Assembly: GCA_016929295.1 (NCBI GenBank)
Contig: JAFGJB010000277.1
Location: 1-35,028, forward strand
Direction of reading: 5' to 3'
DNA from: Candidatus Zhuqueibacterota bacterium
Lineage (GTDB): Bacteria; Zhuqueibacterota; Zhuqueibacteria; Residuimicrobiales; Krinioviventaceae
DNA length: 35,028 nucleotides
Position 1 is the first letter of the stretch, and every line of letters starts with the position of its first letter. Both the position numbers and the translations under genes were made by a program. Under the pieces are notes generated by a model. That model made no database searches. It was not told the DNA's origin and saw only the letters and a program-made list of their open reading frames with translations. Shown in pieces: positions 25,317 through 35,028 of this stretch.

Positions 25317-28300
25317 TCAAGAAGCCTGTGATTGGGATCTTTTTTTGCGCAACTGCCTTTCAGCAACTGCGGCATACAGTACCGGCACCACGAACATTGT
25401 GATGATGGCGATGAGCATACCGCCACAAACAGGGATAGCCATGGGGATCATGATATCAGAGCCGCGGCCTGTTGATGTCAAAACGGGCAATAAGGAGAGA
25501 ATTGTCGTCGCGGTCGTCATGATCATCGGTCGAATTCTTTTTCGACCGGCTTCCACTGTCGCCTTGCGGATGTCATCGATGGAGGCCGGCCGAAGCCGGG
25601 CAAAGCTCTGATCCAGATAGGTGGCTATGAGCACGCCGTCATCTGTGGCGATGCCGAAAAGGGCAAGAAAGCCAATCCAGACGGCGACGCTGAGGTTGAT
25701 GGCGTGCATTTGAAAGAGATCGCGCGTGGACGTCCCGAAAAACGATGCGCTTAAAAACCATTCCTGCCCATAGAGCCACAGCAGGATGAAGCCGCCGGCC
25801 CAAGCCACCGCGATGCCGGTGAAGATCAGCAAGGTTGTGGTGACGTTCTTAAAGTTGAAATAGATCAGCATAAAGATGATGAACAGTGAGATCGGCAGCA
25901 CAATGGTCAAGCGCTTCTGAGCGCGTATCTGGTTTTCAAAGCTGCCGGCGAAATGAAAGCTCACGCCGGCCGGAATTTCCAGCGCTCCGGTTCTGATTTT
26001 ACCGTCCAGGTATTCTTGTGCCTGCCGGACGACAGTGGCTTCGTCATAGCCTGGACGCTTGTCAAACAGGACGTAGGCGGTGAGAAATGTATCTTCGCTG
26101 CGGATCATTTGCGGACCACGAACATATTCGATCGAGCTCAACTGTTTGAGCGGAATCTGGGCGCCTGAAGGTGATGCCACGAGTATGTTTTCAATTTCCT
26201 CGATAGAATTACGCAGCTCGCGCATATAGCGCACCCTGATGGGATACCGCTCACGGCCTTCAACAGTCTGTGAGAGCGGATGGCCGCCAATCGCCACTTC
26301 GATGACGTTTTGAACGGTTGCCAATCGTATTCCATATCGCGCAATCTTTTCGCGGTCGATATGGATTTCCAGGTAGGGCATGCCGATAATCCTGTCCGCC
26401 TGCACGGTTGCGGCATGGATACTCGGAACCTCTTTGAGAAGTCGTTCGATATCGAGTGCTGCTTTATCGATGGTTTCCAGGTCCGGTCCTTTTATTTTAA
26501 TGCCCATCGGTGCACGCATGCCGCTCTGCAGCATCAAAATCCGCGTTTCGATGGGCTGCAGTTTCGGCGCCGATGTCGTGCCGGGAATCTTTGTCACCCG
26601 GATGATCTCGTCCCAGATATCATCCGGGTTGTTGATGCCGGACCATGTCGCTCGACCGGGATTCAACTTGGGATCGAGCGGCGGTCGCCAATTGCGGAAA
26701 GGTTTTCCTCTCCGATCCGGCATCAGCCTGCCATCGCCATCTCGCAGATGTACGCCCTTGACGATGTAGGGAATGCCGTCCGGCGCCAGCATCATCGCTC
26801 CCGATGCATCCAGCGCTGGCCCTGTGCTGTCCGGATGAAACGCAAATTTTGCCACTCGGCCGTGATCATTGGTGATGAAGGGATCCACATAGTTTATCAC
26901 CGTTTCAAACATGGAAATAGGCGCAGGATCAAGAGCCGTTTCCGCCCGGCCAAGTTTGCCCACCACAGACTCGATCTCCGGCAGCGATCGAATCGCCATG
27001 TTCTGCTTGCTGAGCACATCGGTCGCCTCGCCGATTGCGGCGTGCGGCATGGTTGTCGGCATAAAGAGGAAGGAGCCTTCATCCAGCGATGGCATAAATT
27101 CTTTGCCGATCCCGGGAAAGGAATGCGCGATCAGGGATATCGGTCTAAATGCGCGCAATGGTCTTGGCAACCAGCCGAAGAATGTCTCAAAGCCAAGCCA
27201 GATCATCATGCCCAAAATGACGATGGTGATCGGTGCTGCCAGAAATAGCTTTTTATGAGCCAGCGCCCATGTCAGCACCTTCGGATAGACAATGATGACC
27301 GAGCGGAAAAATCCGTAAACAATAAAGATGACCAGTCCGACAAAAAGGATGTTCAGCAGGGCGCTGCGTCCGGCGCCGAGCGGCAGCCAGTTGAGAGCGA
27401 GGATGATCATGACGCCCAACACGACAATCAGATGAGATAAGGTGTCGAGGGACAGCCGTCCTCGCCGCGGGCCGCCGTGCAGAAAAGCGGCAGCTTTGTC
27501 CAATTTATTCTTGTCCATCGTTTTCACTATGCCGAGAGATGCCAGGACAAGGATAATAAATCCGGTTACAATGTTCATTTTTACCATCACGGCTATGCCG
27601 GCGATGACCAGGCCAAAGTGAAATATGCGTCTCATCTCCAGCCGTTTTATGGTCCCTGCAAAAAGCACGTGCGCCAACGGCGGAATAATGGTCAAGGCGA
27701 TGATCGACGATGCAATGAGTGCAAATGTTTTTGTGAATGCCAGCGGTTTGAAGAGTTTGCCTTCCGCTTCCTGCAGGGCGAAAACCGGCAAAAAGCTGAT
27801 GATCGTCGTGCTGACGGCGGTGAGAACGGCTCCTCCGACTTCACTGACGGCGCGATAAATGATTTCGAGCGGTTTTTCGTCCGGTGCCGCGGCAGTATGT
27901 TTGACAATATTTTCAGTGACGACGATGCCCATATCGACCATCGTGCCAATGGCGATGGCAATGCCGGAGAGAGCAACGATATTGGCGTCAATGTTGAAAA
28001 TCTTCATGCCGATGAAGCTCATCAGCACCGCGAGCGGCAGGAGCCCGGAAATCAGCAGCGAACTTTTCAAATGCATGACGAGCAGAATGACCACGATGAC
28101 GACGATGAGTATCTGCTGCGCGATAGCCGATTCCAGTGTACCCAGCGTTTCGTTGATTAGCTTGGTGCGATCATAGAACGGCACGATCGTCACCTGACTG
28201 ACTGTGCCATCAGCCAGTATCTTTTTTGGCAAACCGGGTTGGATCTCGCTGATCTTTTGTTTGATATTTTTTATTGCAGTCAGCGGATTTTCACCATAAC

Positions 28301-29249
28301 GCACGACCGCCACACCGCCGACGGCTTCGGCGCCTTCTTTATCCAGAACGCCGCTGCGCAGTGCCGGGCCAAGGCTGACGTTCGCGACGTTTTTTACAAA
28401 TATCGGAGAGTTATCGATGCTCGTGATGACGGCGTTTTCGATATCATTTATCGATTTGACGAAACCGACGCCTCGAATGATATATTGAACGTTGTTTAAA
28501 TCGATCGTGCGGGCGCCAACGTCGATGTTTGACATTTGAACGGCGCTGATGACCTGTTCCAATGTAACACCATAGAATCGCAAGGCATCTGGATGAATAT
28601 CGATTTGATATTCCTGCACAAAACCGCCAATGGAGGCTACCTCTGCAATACCTTCCGTAGCGGCCAGCGCAAATCGCACGGTAAAATCCTGTATGGAACG
28701 CAGTTGGTGCAGATCCCAACCGCCCGCAGGATTATCATCAGAGTCCCGGCCTTCCAATGTGTACCAGAATACTTGTCCCAGGGCTGTAGCATCCGGGCCA
28801 AGATTCGGTCTGACACCATCGGGCAGTGTGCCGGAAGGCAGGCTGCTCAGTTTTTCAAGAATTCGCGAGCGCGACCAGTAACGATCGATGTCCTCTTTGA
28901 AAATAACATAGACTGTCGAAAAGCCCAGCATAGAAAAACTACGAATCGTCTTCACGCCGGGCATGCCGAGCAGAGAGACTGTGAGTGGATAAGATATTTG
29001 ATCTTCAACATCCTGAGGTGATCGTCCGGGCCAATCAGTGAACACTATCTGCTGATTTTCGCCAATGTCGGGAATGGCGTCGACCGGCACAGGATCGCGC
29101 AGTTCGCCGAGGAATGTCCAGTCGAACGGCGCTACCATGTAACCCCAGCCAACGACTGCGAACAGCAGCAGGAAAACAACAAGCTTGTTTTCAAGGCTAT
29201 AACGAATGAATCTGTCAATAAGAGACGGATATTCTTTTCGATCCCTCAT
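25317..29249 (-). CDS. CusA/CzcA-family heavy-metal efflux RND permease, extended form
   Basis: 1310 aa from the ATG at 29249, which overlaps the upstream stop (ATGA) and has AAAGGAG in range. CusA is about 1047 aa. HME-RND features include VPVDAIPDIGENQQIVFTDW, NIDVGARTIDLNNVQYIIRG, and TM4 with D439 in GTMVDMGIVVTENI (proton relay). The length comes from about 120 extra residues after TM6 (roughly 535-660), with about four added hydrophobic stretches. A further ~70-residue insertion lies near 805-875 and a smaller one near 1160-1183. Of the CusA methionine triad (M573, M623, M672), two match (M906 in RILMLQSG; M1048 in GPQMIRSED). The third is Pro991 in AIGGHPLSQTVEG, next to His990. Proton-driven export of Cu/Ag or another soft metal is likely; the ion is not certain. 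Last gene of the efflux operon. Confidence 0.93.
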   Translation of the reverse strand: MRDRKEYPSLIDRFIRYSLENKLVVFLLLFAVVGWGYMVAPFDWTFLGELRDPVPVDAIPDIGENQQIVFTDWPGRSPQDVEDQISYPLTVSLLGMPGVKTIRSFSMLGFSTVYVIFKEDIDRYWSRSRILEKLSSLPSGTLPDGVRPNLGPDATALGQVFWYTLEGRDSDDNPAGGWDLHQLRSIQDFTVRFALAATEGIAEVASIGGFVQEYQIDIHPDALRFYGVTLEQVISAVQMSNIDVGARTIDLNNVQYIIRGVGFVKSINDIENAVITSIDNSPIFVKNVANVSLGPALRSGVLDKEGAEAVGGVAVVRYGENPLTAIKNIKQKISEIQPGLPKKILADGTVSQVTIVPFYDRTKLINETLGTLESAIAQQILIVVIVVILLVMHLKSSLLISGLLPLAVLMSFIGMKIFNIDANIVALSGIAIAIGTMVDMGIVVTENIVKHTAAAPDEKPLEIIYRAVSEVGGAVLTAVSTTIISFLPVFALQEAEGKLFKPLAFTKTFALIASSIIALTIIPPLAHVLFAGTIKRLEMRRIFHFGLVIAGIAVMVKMNIVTGFIILVLASLGIVKTMDKNKLDKAAAFLHGGPRRGRLSLDTLSHLIVVLGVMIILALNWLPLGAGRSALLNILFVGLVIFIVYGFFRSVIIVYPKVLTWALAHKKLFLAAPITIVILGMMIWLGFETFFGWLPRPLRAFRPISLIAHSFPGIGKEFMPSLDEGSFLFMPTTMPHAAIGEATDVLSKQNMAIRSLPEIESVVGKLGRAETALDPAPISMFETVINYVDPFITNDHGRVAKFAFHPDSTGPALDASGAMMLAPDGIPYIVKGVHLRDGDGRLMPDRRGKPFRNWRPPLDPKLNPGRATWSGINNPDDIWDEIIRVTKIPGTTSAPKLQPIETRILMLQSGMRAPMGIKIKGPDLETIDKAALDIERLLKEVPSIHAATVQADRIIGMPYLEIHIDREKIARYGIRLATVQNVIEVAIGGHPLSQTVEGRERYPIRVRYMRELRNSIEEIENILVASPSGAQIPLKQLSSIEYVRGPQMIRSEDTFLTAYVLFDKRPGYDEATVVRQAQEYLDGKIRTGALEIPAGVSFHFAGSFENQIRAQKRLTIVLPISLFIIFMLIYFNFKNVTTTLLIFTGIAVAWAGGFILLWLYGQEWFLSASFFGTSTRDLFQMHAINLSVAVWIGFLALFGIATDDGVLIATYLDQSFARLRPASIDDIRKATVEAGRKRIRPMIMTTATTILSLLPVLTSTGRGSDIMIPMAIPVCGGMLIAIITMFVVPVLYAAVAERQLRKKRSQSQAS

Positions 29250-30979
29250 TCGTCGTCTCCTTTTTTGTTTGCAAATATTTTTACAGGCGAGCCGCAGCTG
29301 AACATTTCTGCGCCGAAATAAGGATTTTCCACTTTGTCCTTTTGGCTTAACCAATCGGCACCTTTATTATTGAATGCCATTGGGCAATGGTACTGTCTAA
29401 TAGGGGATATGTCCGGTGCGCCGAACGCCGTGAGTGTCTCAATTAAAGCTTCAGAGAGCTTGAAAAATTTCGCCCGAACAATGGCAATATCATTCGTCGA
29501 GGCTATCAGCTCCGTCGTATTTTGAATTGATGCGCCCAGGCGTTGCCAATGAGCATAGTGTGCGCTCAGCGAGACGGCATCAACTTTCTGCAAACTGGTC
29601 AGCAGTCTCGCGGCGGGCTGCGTCACCGCATTCACATTATCATGCGCGAGGGCATCCTGGATATCAAAATAGGCCAGAAAAACGTCGGCCAGGCTATTGA
29701 CAAAATCGGTTGATCTGTGATCATGCGGCAAAGACGCCGGCTTGCCACCATCCAGGTTCATCATGCTTTTTTTTGCCAGGATCTGCATTTCACTGTCGAT
29801 TTTAAACGCGCCGTTGGTCACCACTTGTTCGCCTGCACGCAAGCCTGATGCGACGATATAAAAATCATCGACGCGCTCGCCGAGCACAATTTCGCGGCCT
29901 TCAAAAGTGCCTTTCTGCTCGGGGAGAGCAACGTAGACAATAGCCCTTTTGCCTGTCAGCAGCGGAGCGGTGGCTGGTATGACGAGCCCCCTTTTCGCGG
30001 CGCCGGCAGCGATATGTGCTGATACCAGCAGTCCTGGTACAAGTCTGTTGTCGCTATTAGCTGCCACGGCGCGCACTTTGACCGTGCGGCTGTCTGCATC
30101 CAGCACAGGATCGATGAAATTGATCGTACCGTTGTACACAATGCCCGGATAAGCTTCCGTGGTAAATGTTATTTTCTGCCCCAGTTTGAGCCAGGCAATA
30201 TCCTTTTCATAAGCGTTCAGGTCTATCCACACGGTCGAAAGATCGGCAATATCATATAATGGCGTTCCGGTGTCGACATAAGCTCCCCGGGTGGCGTGGC
30301 GCTCCATGACAATGCCATCGCTCGAAGCATCAACGGTCATTGTCTCCGAGGCATAGCCGCGTTTTTCTATCTCCTCGAGTTGCCTGTCTGTGAGTCCCCA
30401 CAAGCGGAGTTTTTTGCGGACGCTTTCCGAATCAAGCAGCGCTGAATTCGGATTGCTCAATGTATTCAAATACTCCTGTTGTGCAACGTATAGATCGGGG
30501 CTGTAAATGTCGAGGAGTGGCTCACCCGTTTTAACGGCAGCGCCCGTGTAATCGACGTACAGACTTTCAATGCGACCGGGCACGTGTGCGGTGATTGACT
30601 TGAGCAAAGTTTCGTCGACCTCTATTTTGCCGTACAATGCGATACTTTTTGAAACAGCCTTGTACTCGACAAAAGCCGTTTGGACGTTCGCCAATTTCAA
30701 GGCCGTGTCCGAGAGGTACAGTTGCTGCATTCCGAGCTCTTCGGTGTGCTCTTTAGCTATGGGAATCAAGTCCATGCCGCAGATGGGACATTTGCCCGCT
30801 TGCGGTTGTCGTATTTGCGGGTGCATCGCGCATGTCCACGTTGTCGTCTCATTCTGTGCGTCTGTTTGCTGGTTATGGTATGGCGCGGTCGGCTTGCTCA
30901 GGTAGCCGATGATAAAAGCTGTCAGGGCGGCGGCAATAATTGTCCAGTAACCCACTTTGAATTTTGCTAATCCCTTCAT
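29246..30979 (-). CDS. CusB-like membrane fusion protein with N-terminal metal-binding and C-terminal DUF3347-like domains
   Basis: 577 aa. One membrane anchor lies at about 11-28 (YWTIIAAALTAFIIGYL). A heavy-metal-binding module follows at 48-74: WTCAMHPQIRQ, then GKCPICGMDLIPI, with C50, M52, H53, C64 and C67. The membrane-fusion body (about 95-390) has ALYGKIEVDE, HVPGRIESLYVDYTGAAVKTGEPLLDIY and WIDLNAYEKDI. The C-terminal ~160 residues form a helical DUF3347-like domain (VFLAYFDIQDALAHDNV) ending with QYHCPMAFNNKGADWL and a FSCGSP segment, further Cys/Met/His candidates for metal capture. It links the RND pump to the outer-membrane channel and probably hands metal over. ATGA overlaps at both ends with its neighbours; SD AGGGGA. 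Confidence 0.92.
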   Translation of the reverse strand: MKGLAKFKVGYWTIIAAALTAFIIGYLSKPTAPYHNQQTDAQNETTTWTCAMHPQIRQPQAGKCPICGMDLIPIAKEHTEELGMQQLYLSDTALKLANVQTAFVEYKAVSKSIALYGKIEVDETLLKSITAHVPGRIESLYVDYTGAAVKTGEPLLDIYSPDLYVAQQEYLNTLSNPNSALLDSESVRKKLRLWGLTDRQLEEIEKRGYASETMTVDASSDGIVMERHATRGAYVDTGTPLYDIADLSTVWIDLNAYEKDIAWLKLGQKITFTTEAYPGIVYNGTINFIDPVLDADSRTVKVRAVAANSDNRLVPGLLVSAHIAAGAAKRGLVIPATAPLLTGKRAIVYVALPEQKGTFEGREIVLGERVDDFYIVASGLRAGEQVVTNGAFKIDSEMQILAKKSMMNLDGGKPASLPHDHRSTDFVNSLADVFLAYFDIQDALAHDNVNAVTQPAARLLTSLQKVDAVSLSAHYAHWQRLGASIQNTTELIASTNDIAIVRAKFFKLSEALIETLTAFGAPDISPIRQYHCPMAFNNKGADWLSQKDKVENPYFGAEMFSCGSPVKIFANKKGDDE

Positions 30980-32232
30980 TTCAATTCCCCTTTTGTTGAT
31001 GTTCCGATCAGATTTTCAAGCTTTGCCCATGTACGGACATATCGGTTCGACAGTTCTATGTGAGCGAGTTGGTATTGCAGGTGTTCTCTCGCATACTGCA
31101 CGAGCGATAAAAAGTCCAGGCGATCACTCTGATATCCGACTATAGACAACGCGACAGTCTGTTCCGAGGCGGGTATAATTTCAGTGCTGTAGAGATCGAT
31201 TTGATCGGAGAAAGCAGAGAGCTCGTTTCTTAGGGCGATTAGTTGTACTCGAAATTTATCCAAAAGCGTTTGGTAGTCCATGACTGCCTGCCTTGCCAGG
31301 ATTCGTGATTTTTCCAGCGCCGCTCGCGTGTCCTGACGTGACCAGGGCATGAATGGCAGCGTCATGCTGACCCGTCCCATAAGGGCATCATTCATATCGT
31401 TCATCACCATATATCCGCCCATGATATGGAAGGCTGGACGTTTGCCGGCGCGCATCAGCTCCAGGTCATTCTCGCTGGCGGCGATCCGGATTCTCGCGGC
31501 CCGTAAAAAAGGATTCGAACGCTCCAGCAGAGAATCTGAATTTGTTACGGTTGACAAAATGGGCATGATGATCGTCGAGTCCGTCGATATATATCCATCT
31601 AATCGTCGCCTCAGGAGGCGGTTCATTTCGGCTGCCAATGAGGATCGCTGTTCCAGTAACGACAATCGGTCCGTTTCAAGACGTGCTTTTTCGATCCTGA
31701 TGTGATACAGAGCTTGCTGCTCGGTTTTGCCGACGACATATTTACTCTCCGCACTTTTTTCGAATTCACTCATGAGCTGCAAATGTCTGTCATTTGTCGC
31801 CAGCGTTTGGTCGAGATAATAGATCTGGTAATAGACATCCTTGACCGCCCAGATGATTTCGTTTTCAACAGCATTTAACATCTCGATTTGAATGTCCGCA
31901 GCAAACTCGCCGTTCTTTCGCATCCGTCTCAGGACGCCCGGGGCGGGAAACATCTGTTCCAGCATGAACATCAGCTCGCGTGTGGTGGTGATGTCAGAGA
32001 TGTCGAGCGGCAAACCGCGGCCCTCGATCATAAATGTCGGATCAGGCAGAGCGCTGGAGATGTGAGCCTCTTGTTGCGTCGCATCTCTCGCCAGTCGGGC
32101 TGAGAGGATTTCTGTGTTCGACTCCAGGGCAGTCTTGATGTAATCCTTTAGCAAATAATCGCCGCCGTGTGCGGGCTGGTATGGCCATAGTAGGCAAAAG
32201 TACAACAGGAAAGAGTGTGTAGGGATCTTCAT
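30976..32232 (-). CDS. TolC-family outer-membrane efflux channel (CusC-like)
   Basis: 418 aa from the ATG at 32232, chosen for the AGGTGAGCAG SD and signal peptide (MKIPTHSFLLYFCLLWP, cleavage near AHG-G). The pattern is that of outer-membrane efflux proteins. Two long helical repeats contain ALESNTEILSARLARDA near residue 40, and LRAARIRIAASENDLELMRAGKRPAF near 240. They have PDPTFMIEGRG and QDTRAALEKSRI-type turns between helices. No lipobox Cys follows the signal region, unlike CusC itself, which is acylated. It forms the outer-membrane exit duct of the tripartite pump. Its stop overlaps the fusion-protein start by 4 bp. Confidence 0.9.
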   Translation of the reverse strand: MKIPTHSFLLYFCLLWPYQPAHGGDYLLKDYIKTALESNTEILSARLARDATQQEAHISSALPDPTFMIEGRGLPLDISDITTTRELMFMLEQMFPAPGVLRRMRKNGEFAADIQIEMLNAVENEIIWAVKDVYYQIYYLDQTLATNDRHLQLMSEFEKSAESKYVVGKTEQQALYHIRIEKARLETDRLSLLEQRSSLAAEMNRLLRRRLDGYISTDSTIIMPILSTVTNSDSLLERSNPFLRAARIRIAASENDLELMRAGKRPAFHIMGGYMVMNDMNDALMGRVSMTLPFMPWSRQDTRAALEKSRILARQAVMDYQTLLDKFRVQLIALRNELSAFSDQIDLYSTEIIPASEQTVALSIVGYQSDRLDFLSLVQYAREHLQYQLAHIELSNRYVRTWAKLENLIGTSTKGELK

Positions 32233-32387
32233 CTGCTCACCTCTCTTAAGTGACAAAATTTGACGATAACTTGCAGAAAATGACCTGTTCATGATATCAA
32301 CGGCTTTTAATTCTCATACGTTGAGTCATGCCAGGCTTGCAAGACCGTGTGCTTTGAAAAATGCGGAGTGGAGCTTCCGCCTCCGGA

Positions 32388-32831
32388 TCAAATGAGGAGA
32401 GGCAGGTTTAACTGTTTGGTGGGATGAACAGGCAAGATGGGTAATTTGCAGATGCCATGAGCATGCACGTCGTGCGCCGATGACTGACCTTGGGGACATG
32501 TGGTATCATAATCGAGATCAACCGGCTTGGAGAGAGTCGTCGCGTCGATGAGGTGAAAAGCCGCCTGGTCTTGACAGCACTGACCTTGCATCTTTAGCAA
32601 ACGAGCGGACCGAGCGGGCAGAGAATCGTCAGGCGCCCCGCTGCAGCATGAATCTTGTTGCGATGATAAAGTAATGAGGCCTTTCTCATATTCCGCGGCA
32701 GGCCTGCAGCTGCATTCCTCTCGCTTTTCTCCCGTTTGGCGTTGTATCTTGCACACATGCTGTACTGTCGTTACGCCCATACTAACCATGATATAGATCA
32801 GTGTAAAGATTGTGATCAATAATCTCTTCAT
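32388..32831 (-). CDS. Small Cys/His-rich exported protein at head of metal-efflux operon (HYC_CC_PP-like)
   Basis: 147 aa from the ATG at 32831 (SD CGGAG, 5 nt spacing). An N-terminal hydrophobic segment (LLITIFTLIYIMVSMGV) is a signal or anchor. It is followed by QHVC (H25, C27), two CC pairs (C62-C63, C85-C86 in GQCCQDQAAFHL), further Cys at 40, 42, 112 and 128, and His at 93, 120, 123, 125 and 136. The order HxC, CC, CC..F resembles the small Bacteroidota proteins known as the HYC_CC_PP family, with HVC in place of HYC; this is recalled similarity, not a search. Position 155 bp upstream of the channel gene on the same strand suggests a periplasmic metal-binding or sensing role. Function unproven. 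Confidence 0.68.
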   Translation of the reverse strand: MKRLLITIFTLIYIMVSMGVTTVQHVCKIQRQTGEKREECSCRPAAEYEKGLITLSSQQDSCCSGAPDDSLPARSARLLKMQGQCCQDQAAFHLIDATTLSKPVDLDYDTTCPQGQSSAHDVHAHGICKLPILPVHPTKQLNLPLLI

Positions 32832-33067
32832 CGCTTCTCCGATATGGAAAACTTTAACAAAGATCTGTGCACCACAATTCCAGCGCTTTTTCCCAAACAA
32901 GCCTAACATTACTGTTCTGAAAAAAATATGAATTCTTTGAGGATTTTTGCCCATTGCTGCGCTCTATTTATGCAGCAAAAGTCAATCGGATTTCTATTCC
33001 GAAGACGCTTGCTTCATTTAAGATGACGCAGGGAGGAATGACGAGGAAATAGAACCGGAGGTAATTT
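32832..33067. promoter_or_regulatory. Divergent promoter region: metal-efflux operon versus secreted peptide cassette
   Basis: 236 bp between the divergent starts at 32831 (minus) and 33068 (plus). It must hold the promoters of both units. AT-rich tracts lie near 32905-32935. I see no clear palindrome of the MerR/CueR type and no regulator gene beside it, so any metal-responsive regulator is encoded elsewhere. Confidence 0.4.
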
Positions 33068-33331
33068 ATGAAAAAGAAACTCGGTAGCATCATGCTGCGG
33101 GCAGTGGCGCTTATCCCATTGCTCAGCTCAGCTGCGATGTCAACGCCGTGCCCCTATCTGTCGGTGACGAGCAATGGATGGACGGGTCAACTGAAACGTT
33201 GCTACACCTTCACCTGGGGAGTCAGTTCCGGCATCATCGCCACCGTGGTTTATCACAAGTGCGAGTATGTCGGAATTAGCGGTCATAGCGGCACGATAAC
33301 AGTCGAAAGGGATATTGTTGATTACTGCTAA
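33068..33331 (+). CDS. Secreted four-cysteine small peptide, function unknown
   Basis: 87 aa with a near-perfect SD (CGGAGG, 7 nt spacing). The basic start MKKKLGSIMLRAVALIPLL, then SSAAMS, is a standard signal peptide; cleavage near S25 leaves about 62 residues. The mature part has four cysteines (C28, C45, C65, C87), the last being the C-terminal residue, so two disulfides are possible. It is rich in beta-forming residues and aromatics (WTGQLKRCYTFTWG, IIATVVYHKCEYVGI). No family is recognised. Placement 72 bp before a 6-bladed beta-propeller lipoprotein recalls Bacteroidota loci in which small exported peptides (for example NVEALA-type) sit beside propeller proteins, but the NVEALA motif itself is absent. 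Confidence 0.75.
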   Translation: MKKKLGSIMLRAVALIPLLSSAAMSTPCPYLSVTSNGWTGQLKRCYTFTWGVSSGIIATVVYHKCEYVGISGHSGTITVERDIVDYC

Positions 33332-33403
33332 CCGGTCTGCTAATACAATATTACTCTAAACGATTTCCGCGCTTATTCTTCCCTGTGAGATTATGGAGAC
33401 AAT

Positions 33404-34483
33404 ATGCGGATAATTCAAATTGTCGGAATAACTTTATGCGTCGCCCTTTTGCCCGCCTGTGTGGGGCTCTTTGATGTGGACCCGCACAGCCCTGCAAACA
33501 GGTATCTTGCCGGTGATATGATACTGGTTGAACGCGAAAATCTTTTGGCCGCGCAGAGCAGCCTGTCGCTATTCTGCGACGAGAACTGGTGCGATTTTAC
33601 CTCTGTTCGCGATATCGCCGTCTCCGAATCACAGACAATTTTTATCCTCAATGATTACGGCGAGATTCTCATCATGAATGAGGCTGGGACGCCGCAGCGC
33701 TTTTTTGAGTCCTATGGGCAAGGTCCGGGCGAGATGATCTCTCCCACTGTCATTAAAGTCCGAGATCAAACACTTTATGTGCTAGACAGCGGCAGCAACA
33801 AATTCGTGCTTTTTGATCTCGACGGAACATGGATGAAGGATATAGTCATCCACGATATTCTGGTCACGGCGTTTGCGGTGGACGACGAGGGGCTCATTTA
33901 TATCCCTCGACTGGTGCCGCGGTTTCTCGGCAACGGCGAGATGGCGCTCTTGCATGTTTACAATGAAGAGGGCGATTTATTGAAGGCATTGGCGCAAAAC
34001 AGCGTTGTTCAGAATGACCTGCTCAATATACCGACCACACCGCTCATCTGCCTCGCTAAAGATGCCGACATAGTGCTCGGCCTCAACATTCAGGGTGTTT
34101 TTTATCTCTTCACCAGGGAAGGGGAATTCAGACAGAGATTTCATATTCGGAGGGGAGCTGAATGGAGAGAGAGCGTGCGTTTTCAGCGGGCGCTGGACAA
34201 ACAGTTCGGCCATGGGAATAGCTGGCGTAACCGGGTCGAGAACATGTCCGTTGATTCCCGTGGGACCATTTACGCAACTTTTGGCGGCGAGTTTAAAAAA
34301 CAGCGAACGCTGGCATTGATCTATGACGATCGCGGCCAGTTCATTGGCCGTCTGTTTGGCAATGCCGGTCTGCCATTTGCGCCCACCTGTTTTCAGCTGG
34401 CAACTGATTCGACGGCGTGGATTTACAGCCGAGAACAAGAGTTTTTAGGAATGTGCAAAATGAGGCGGAGGAAGGATGATTAA
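33404..34483 (+). CDS. 6-bladed beta-propeller lipoprotein
   Basis: 359 aa with SD GGAGAC. The signal peptide ends in a lipobox (MRIIQIVGITLCVALLPAC, Cys19). The body has repeated propeller-blade phrases. They include VRDIAVSESQTIFILNDYGEIL, VRDQTLYVLDSGSNKFVLFD, FAVDDEGLIYIPRL, MSVDSRGTIYATFGG and LATDSTAWIYSREQ: hydrophobic strand, Asp/Ser turn, then (I/L)Y(I/V). SYGQGPGEM matches the G-x-GPGE signature typical of the 6-bladed (NHL/BF-type) family. No catalytic motif. It is probably an envelope-anchored binding protein; partner unknown, with the small peptide upstream and the overlapping gene downstream as candidates. The next gene's ATG lies 8 bases inside this reading frame. Confidence 0.82.
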   Translation: MRIIQIVGITLCVALLPACVGLFDVDPHSPANRYLAGDMILVERENLLAAQSSLSLFCDENWCDFTSVRDIAVSESQTIFILNDYGEILIMNEAGTPQRFFESYGQGPGEMISPTVIKVRDQTLYVLDSGSNKFVLFDLDGTWMKDIVIHDILVTAFAVDDEGLIYIPRLVPRFLGNGEMALLHVYNEEGDLLKALAQNSVVQNDLLNIPTTPLICLAKDADIVLGLNIQGVFYLFTREGEFRQRFHIRRGAEWRESVRFQRALDKQFGHGNSWRNRVENMSVDSRGTIYATFGGEFKKQRTLALIYDDRGQFIGRLFGNAGLPFAPTCFQLATDSTAWIYSREQEFLGMCKMRRRKDD

Positions 34484-35028
34484 TCCCGTATCACTCTTCA
34501 CTTTGGTGAAAACGCCTTTTTTCATCCATCCGGATGAAAAAGCAGGGCGTCAACGGATTCGCAGTAGATGCAGTGCTTCTGCGCCGCTGCTGGTCATTCT
34601 GCTGCTGGCCAATTGCCTGCGGGCAAATGATCAGCTGCGGCCATCGCCATTCATCATTCTGCAGGACAATGAAAAATGCATGCTTCCTCAACCGGGCAAA
34701 GTGACATTGTTTTTTCTGCCATTATCGCCGCCGGCGGCAAAAAGTGAATGGCACTATCTGTCGGCGCTCTCGAACTGTCTGCCGCAACATCAGCTCTCTG
34801 TCTATCATGTTGTCTTTGATTCCACAGCGGACGCCGGAGATTTGACCATGATCCTGCCGCAATCAGATGTATTCGATTCTACTTTCGCTCGGGCAACCGA
34901 GTATGCGACAGATATCGTCCTACTCGTCGATAAAAGTGCTGAGCCCCAATGTACCAAGATTAGTGCAAAAACGGACAATTTTAGGATGAAAATAGTGCTA
35001 AGCTATTGTTTATTAGTACGGCGACTCA
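34476..35028 (+). CDS. Partial gene overlapping the propeller gene; thioredoxin-like fold possible
   Basis: Open to the window end; 184 codons translated by eye. The ATG at 34476 overlaps the propeller stop by 8 bp and is preceded by GGAGGAAGG. The N-terminus is MINPVSLFTLVKTPFFIHPD. A hydrophobic stretch follows a basic segment at about 36-46 (APLLVILLLANC), probably a signal or anchor, though unusually far from the start. Then comes PGKVTLFFLPLSPPAAKSEW, with LSVYHVVFDS 30 residues later. This resembles the beta-alpha-beta opening of a redoxin/TlpA-like domain but with no CxxC (SPPA instead). I do not recognise the family; the missing C-terminus could decide. Confidence 0.6.
   Translation, partial: MINPVSLFTLVKTPFFIHPDEKAGRQRIRSRCSASAPLLVILLLANCLRANDQLRPSPFIILQDNEKCMLPQPGKVTLFFLPLSPPAAKSEWHYLSALSNCLPQHQLSVYHVVFDSTADAGDLTMILPQSDVFDSTFARATEYATDIVLLVDKSAEPQCTKISAKTDNFRMKIVLSYCLLVRRL

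Follow-up and report, generated by a model that had tools for sequence, protein, structure and literature searches.

Does a small exported peptide with several cysteines form a unit with the beta-propeller encoded directly behind it, or do the two genes simply share a locus? This question is raised by the end of a contig of 35,028 nucleotides (G000:C33) from a metagenome-assembled genome (4.34 Mb in 367 contigs); the contig in its whole length is referred to as the window. The preliminary description of this DNA had proposed a cassette of a secreted cysteine peptide, a propeller lipoprotein and an overlapping exported protein, and had drawn a parallel to Bacteroidota; the system is located in the KSB1 phylum instead. 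We favour a reading in which the peptide is handled, and presumably bound, by the propeller.

The peptide and propeller genes

The peptide gene (33068–33331, forward strand) encodes an exported small Cys protein of 87 amino acids and has a homolog at L003:1258–1506 (35% identity). A Sec-type signal peptide is predicted for residues 1–25 (33068–33142, forward strand) with a likely cut after AMS-25, and its MKKK start is kept in the related genome G004 (see below). The resulting mature peptide of about 62 residues carries four cysteines (Cys28, Cys45, Cys65 and Cys87), the last of them being the C-terminal residue, in agreement with the preliminary description; the near-perfect Shine-Dalgarno site mentioned there is the GGAGG at 33057–33061 (forward strand), 6 bases 5′ of the ATG. 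Scans of this peptide and 24 others against Pfam and NCBIfam returned no informative family; a lone Ammonium_transp match in one of the surveyed peptides was taken as chance. The AF2 model of the peptide is too poor for use (pLDDT 58). A promoter and terminator scan yielded sites no more frequent than in shuffles. The cassette adjoins, in the opposite direction, a three-gene RND heavy-metal efflux set (25317–32292, reverse strand; CusA-, CusB- and TolC-like by eye), which is preceded by another small exported Cys-rich ORF (32388–32954, or a shorter start) with no NCBIfam match.

About 72 bp behind the peptide gene lies the gene of an exported protein of 359 amino acids (33404–34483, forward strand). 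It scores 39.2 bits against DUF5128 (PF17170), over the curated cut-off of 22.9. Its AF2 model is of good quality (pLDDT 82.6, pTM 0.82), and the best PDB matches of this model are 6-bladed NHL propellers (Z 24–26 over about 268 residues); based on the model, a 6-bladed NHL-like fold is predicted with confidence. While the propeller itself was thus read correctly at the outset, the label of lipoprotein is uncertain: the window protein has LPAC with a Pro at position −2, the G004 ortholog is devoid of a lipobox, and a strict lipobox is found in 13 of 104 surveyed propellers. No relative of the propeller was found in viral contigs, and a scan of genome contigs returned none beyond the two already known.

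Conservation of the pair was assessed in related genomes. In G004, which belongs to a different genus within the family, the pair is also present, with identities of 35% for the peptide and 39% for the propeller. All four cysteines, the motif GWTG and the terminal Cys are kept in the G004 peptide, which has three extra cysteines of its own in the mature part. The propeller of G001 is 71% identical to that of the window; since the G001 contig begins inside the propeller gene, presence of the peptide there is not assessable. Wherever upstream DNA is available, the closest propeller family was never seen without the peptide. The preliminary description had regarded a small ORF that is not conserved, or is lost while the propeller is kept, as speaking against the cassette; with the peptide kept in G004, neither was observed. 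In the remaining 79 genomes, both a close propeller and the peptide are absent; weak peptide matches in other genomes (E > 0.004) fell mostly in ORFs that were long or broken, and were put down to chance. A more distant and weaker cassette of like layout occurs in G019, a genome of the same order; its peptide has six Cys, one of them terminal, and is accompanied by a propeller and by a two-domain protein with CxxC.

The interrupted third gene and the rest of the operon

The third gene (ORF3) starts at 34476 and overlaps the end of the propeller gene at 34483 by 8 bp, as had been described. It had also been taken for an exported protein; the ORF is real, but it is native only to about 34943, appears thioredoxin-like, and is cut by a repeat. 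Positions 34476–34943 (forward strand) represent the 5′ part of the interrupted two-domain gene, of which the 3′ part is found on contig C306 of the same genome, up to base 627. The final 85 bp of the window (34944–35028, forward strand) are foreign to ORF3 and belong to an IS-like, repeated element, whose left end terminates the contig. An identical sequence forms the end of contig C24, which likewise runs into the repeat, and homology of ORF3 to its G001 relative ends where the repeat begins. The second half of ORF3 follows behind the other repeat end, which is also present on C318 (repeat ends at window 34944–35028, G000:C24:33712–33798, G000:C306:1–87 and G000:C318:13066–13154). The terminal inverted repeats of the element are imperfect (one of 2000 shuffles was as good), and the insertion point is flanked by a 4-bp target-site duplication, TGAG (34940–34943, forward strand, with the second copy on C306). 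Terminal inverted repeats and target duplication, the marks of an insertion sequence, are both present at the window end; a transposase was not seen. Joining the ORF3 flanks in silico, so as to restore the empty site, gives an in-frame product of 335 residues, 47% identical over 304 residues to the 314-aa protein of G001. The simplest account would be that an insertion sequence has entered a thioredoxin-like gene with two domains and a CxxC. The repeat breaks both this gene and the assembly.

ORF3 is probably thioredoxin-like. The assignment is graded no higher because it is based on the motifs CTPC, CTTC and CMPC together with sub-threshold matches. These motifs share one alignment column in the second half of the product, and every member of the ORF3 family has the CxxC. 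The Pfam thioredoxin match of ORF3 is sub-threshold, AhpC-TSA matches the relative of ORF3 in L095 with E 0.0023 (below the cut-off), and the ORF3 profile matches a designed thioredoxin in the PDB with E 0.04. Profile comparison of ORF3 with the other neighbours gave a probability of 3%, which is not significant.

The preliminary description had expected the rest of the operon beyond the window edge. The remainder was found on C306, where the 3′ half of ORF3 is followed 31 bp downstream by the gene of an 889-aa GT2-like protein and then by riboflavin genes. The 889-aa protein is 58% identical to its G001 ortholog, carries IPTKNR and DDD motifs, and matches the GT2 models TIGR04440 and TIGR00180 (E 1.5e-4) as well as MftF (E 0.003) below cut-off; no relevant PDB match was found for it. 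In G004, a GT2-like ORF follows about 35 bp after the propeller gene, and the thioredoxin-like gene is absent. Because one further contig of the genome holds both the other half of ORF3 and the GT2-like gene, the operon of this lineage is read as peptide, propeller, (thioredoxin-like) and GT2-like.

The GT2-like gene is constant in the window lineage, and the chance of a modified peptide product is therefore raised. This may point to the peptide as a natural product of ribosomal origin (similar to a bacteriocin or a signal, crosslinked by disulfides or thioethers, and possibly glycosylated), with the propeller as carrier or immunity protein. The weak matches of the 889-aa protein to TIGR00180 and MftF glycosyltransferases are in line with such a product. 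A homolog of this protein in G026 overlaps an NRPS-like gene (L150, G026:C62, 7037–8566 and 8547–11819), so that natural-product clusters, too, contain members of this enzyme family. Moreover, MauE and a Cys-rich small ORF cluster with a DUF5128 propeller in one locus of G078 (L034, G078:C25, 368–3649), together with a radical-SAM/SPASM enzyme that resembles CcpM closely (341.5 bits against a cut-off of 500). However, the signal of the window peptide is of the ordinary Sec type and not a double-Gly leader, genes for a dedicated ABC exporter or a leader peptidase are missing next to the pair, the operon is devoid of a radical SAM gene, and the GT2 matches are below cut-off. On balance, a natural product appears unlikely.

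Cysteine peptides beside propellers across the phylum

Further Cys peptides beside propellers, for which a search within the same genome had been suggested, were sought phylum-wide. A DUF5128 search of 82 genomes of the phylum provided the 129 matches used; about 60 propeller neighbourhoods were fetched, and 104 propellers were recognised in them. Small ORFs were picked with a simple in-house rule (signal-like start, Shine-Dalgarno site and at least 3 Cys) and not by a trained signal-peptide predictor. Such Cys ORFs are located at most 400 bp from a propeller in 20 of 25 cases, compared with about 3 predicted from the 11% of sequence concerned (binomial P 2.5e-15). The 20 nearby ORFs are situated upstream (13) or downstream (7) of the propeller, none on the opposite strand, with gaps mostly below 200 bp. 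One of them (L111) is a truncated thioredoxin, and the conclusion is the same without it. Control loci that were not chosen by propellers (125 kb) contain one such ORF. The association proposed for the window cassette is hence not a product of chance.

MauE is a membrane protein tied to disulfide formation. Its genes accumulate near propellers (18/106 within 3 kb, 0.19 expected, P 3e-30); in the window genome, MauE is present as a single copy on C267, unlinked to the operon. In L100 and L068, neighbours of thioredoxin fold score above the cut-off for AhpC-TSA. The genetic link of propellers to exported Cys peptides and MauE-type genes is statistically firm, and a pair that recurs, often near genes for forming or exchanging disulfides, suggests a dedicated peptide-plus-partner system. 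Alternatively, small Cys proteins and propellers may be surface genes that share loci without interacting. The pairing is known here from genes, and about 85 of the 104 surveyed propellers have no detected Cys peptide, which means that propellers also work without one. Such mere cohabitation nevertheless fits poorly with nearby pairs that are all same-strand and closely spaced, and with the preservation of the pair in G004 at 35–39% identity; we consider it improbable and retain the dedicated system as our working model.

In an alignment, the surveyed peptides have little in common beyond signal and cysteines. Cysteine counts are even in 14 and odd in 13 entries of a list that includes two non-peptides and the window twice; there is no excess of even counts, and simple, fully paired disulfides are therefore not general. 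The more similar two propellers are, the more similar their peptides tend to be (Mantel r 0.26, p 0.002; p 0.005 without obvious duplicates), which fits pairing but may also result from shared descent. In one locus (L074, G076:C53), eight DUF5128-type propellers are arrayed behind a single 8-Cys exported peptide. Small lytic-transglycosylase-like ORFs were seen by peptide-propeller pairs in L095 (8103–8702, by eye only) and L081 (1869–2282, SLT E 0.005, sub-threshold).

The kinds of genes assembled in these loci (small Cys protein, propeller, MauE, thioredoxin fold) correspond to those of methylamine dehydrogenase, and peptide and propeller may be regarded as subunits of a redox enzyme built in the same way, with a Cys-rich small subunit, a propeller large subunit, MauE and a MauD-like thioredoxin. 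This correspondence does not extend to the proteins themselves: no Trp pair is conserved across the 25 aligned peptides, which appear too variable for a single active site, the propeller resembles NHL propellers, and a MauG or cytochrome partner was not noticed beside the pair. An enzyme of this type is therefore judged very improbable.

Proposed mechanism and relation to known systems

Our preferred reading of the dedicated system is an extracytoplasmic peptide-plus-partner module, in which a Cys peptide would mature by oxidation and be held by an NHL-like propeller of its own; derived from sequence, this reading appears to us about evenly poised between right and wrong. The peptide would be exported unfolded via Sec, and its cysteines would be oxidised or rearranged outside the membrane by redox proteins of the thioredoxin or MauE type, linked to the pair or encoded elsewhere. 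Its own propeller would then bind the matured peptide and act as stable partner or carrier. With less weight, the GT2-like enzyme may modify the peptide or its carrier. The unlinked MauE of the window genome, the missing thioredoxin-like gene in G004, the sub-threshold matches of ORF3, the odd Cys counts, the poor peptide model and the many propellers with no detected peptide all speak against this reading. The complex may be a structural or redox protein, a signal, or an inter-bacterial product; the proposal of the preliminary description that the peptide is a signal or toxin found no support in the analysis. MauE and MauD function in maturing methylamine dehydrogenase, and formation of the disulfides in the small subunit of this enzyme has been ascribed speculatively to MauE; in candidate RiPP clusters of Streptomyces, MauE/MauD were also noted near precursors with at least 8 Cys (PMC7794033).

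Extended to the KSB1 phylum as a whole, the model would comprise fast-diverging exported Cys peptides, each bound by a cognate NHL-like propeller and supplied with lineage-specific maturation genes (MauE/thioredoxin, radical SAM, GT2); such a carrier- or receptor-locked system, which would be without described equivalent, is possible although somewhat doubtful. DUF5128 propellers, which are frequent in the phylum, have lacked an explanation; the link to Cys peptides and MauE gives them a testable partner. The survey yields about 20 natural peptide-propeller pairs, and suggests that exported Cys peptides include a class not recognised by family libraries.

In the literature searched, no functional paper was found on peptide-propeller neighbourhoods, and nothing direct on DUF5128 or on MauE with propellers. 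Among known systems, NVEALA peptides (PF14055) are encoded beside 6-bladed propellers in Bacteroidota, a pairing familiar from annotation. The likeness consists in a small exported peptide beside a DUF5128-type propeller; in contrast, none of the 25 KSB1 peptides matches the NVEALA model up to E 1. Clusters of the mau type share a small Cys-rich subunit, a propeller subunit, and MauE and MauD gene kinds. The propeller of methylamine dehydrogenase, however, is 7-bladed, whereas the propeller described here is 6-bladed and NHL-like, in addition to the differences in MauG, peptide variability and Trp pair given above. In candidate RiPP clusters of Streptomyces detected by decRiPPter, a small Cys-rich peptide adjoins MauE and thioredoxin-type genes as well; a propeller is not mentioned in the available part of that source, and the window operon differs by its Sec signal and its unlinked MauE (PMC7794033). 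Finally, while the window operon is without the enzyme that characterizes CcpM-type clusters, one KSB1 propeller locus, that of G078 (L034), brings a CcpM-like enzyme together with a Cys-rich small ORF.
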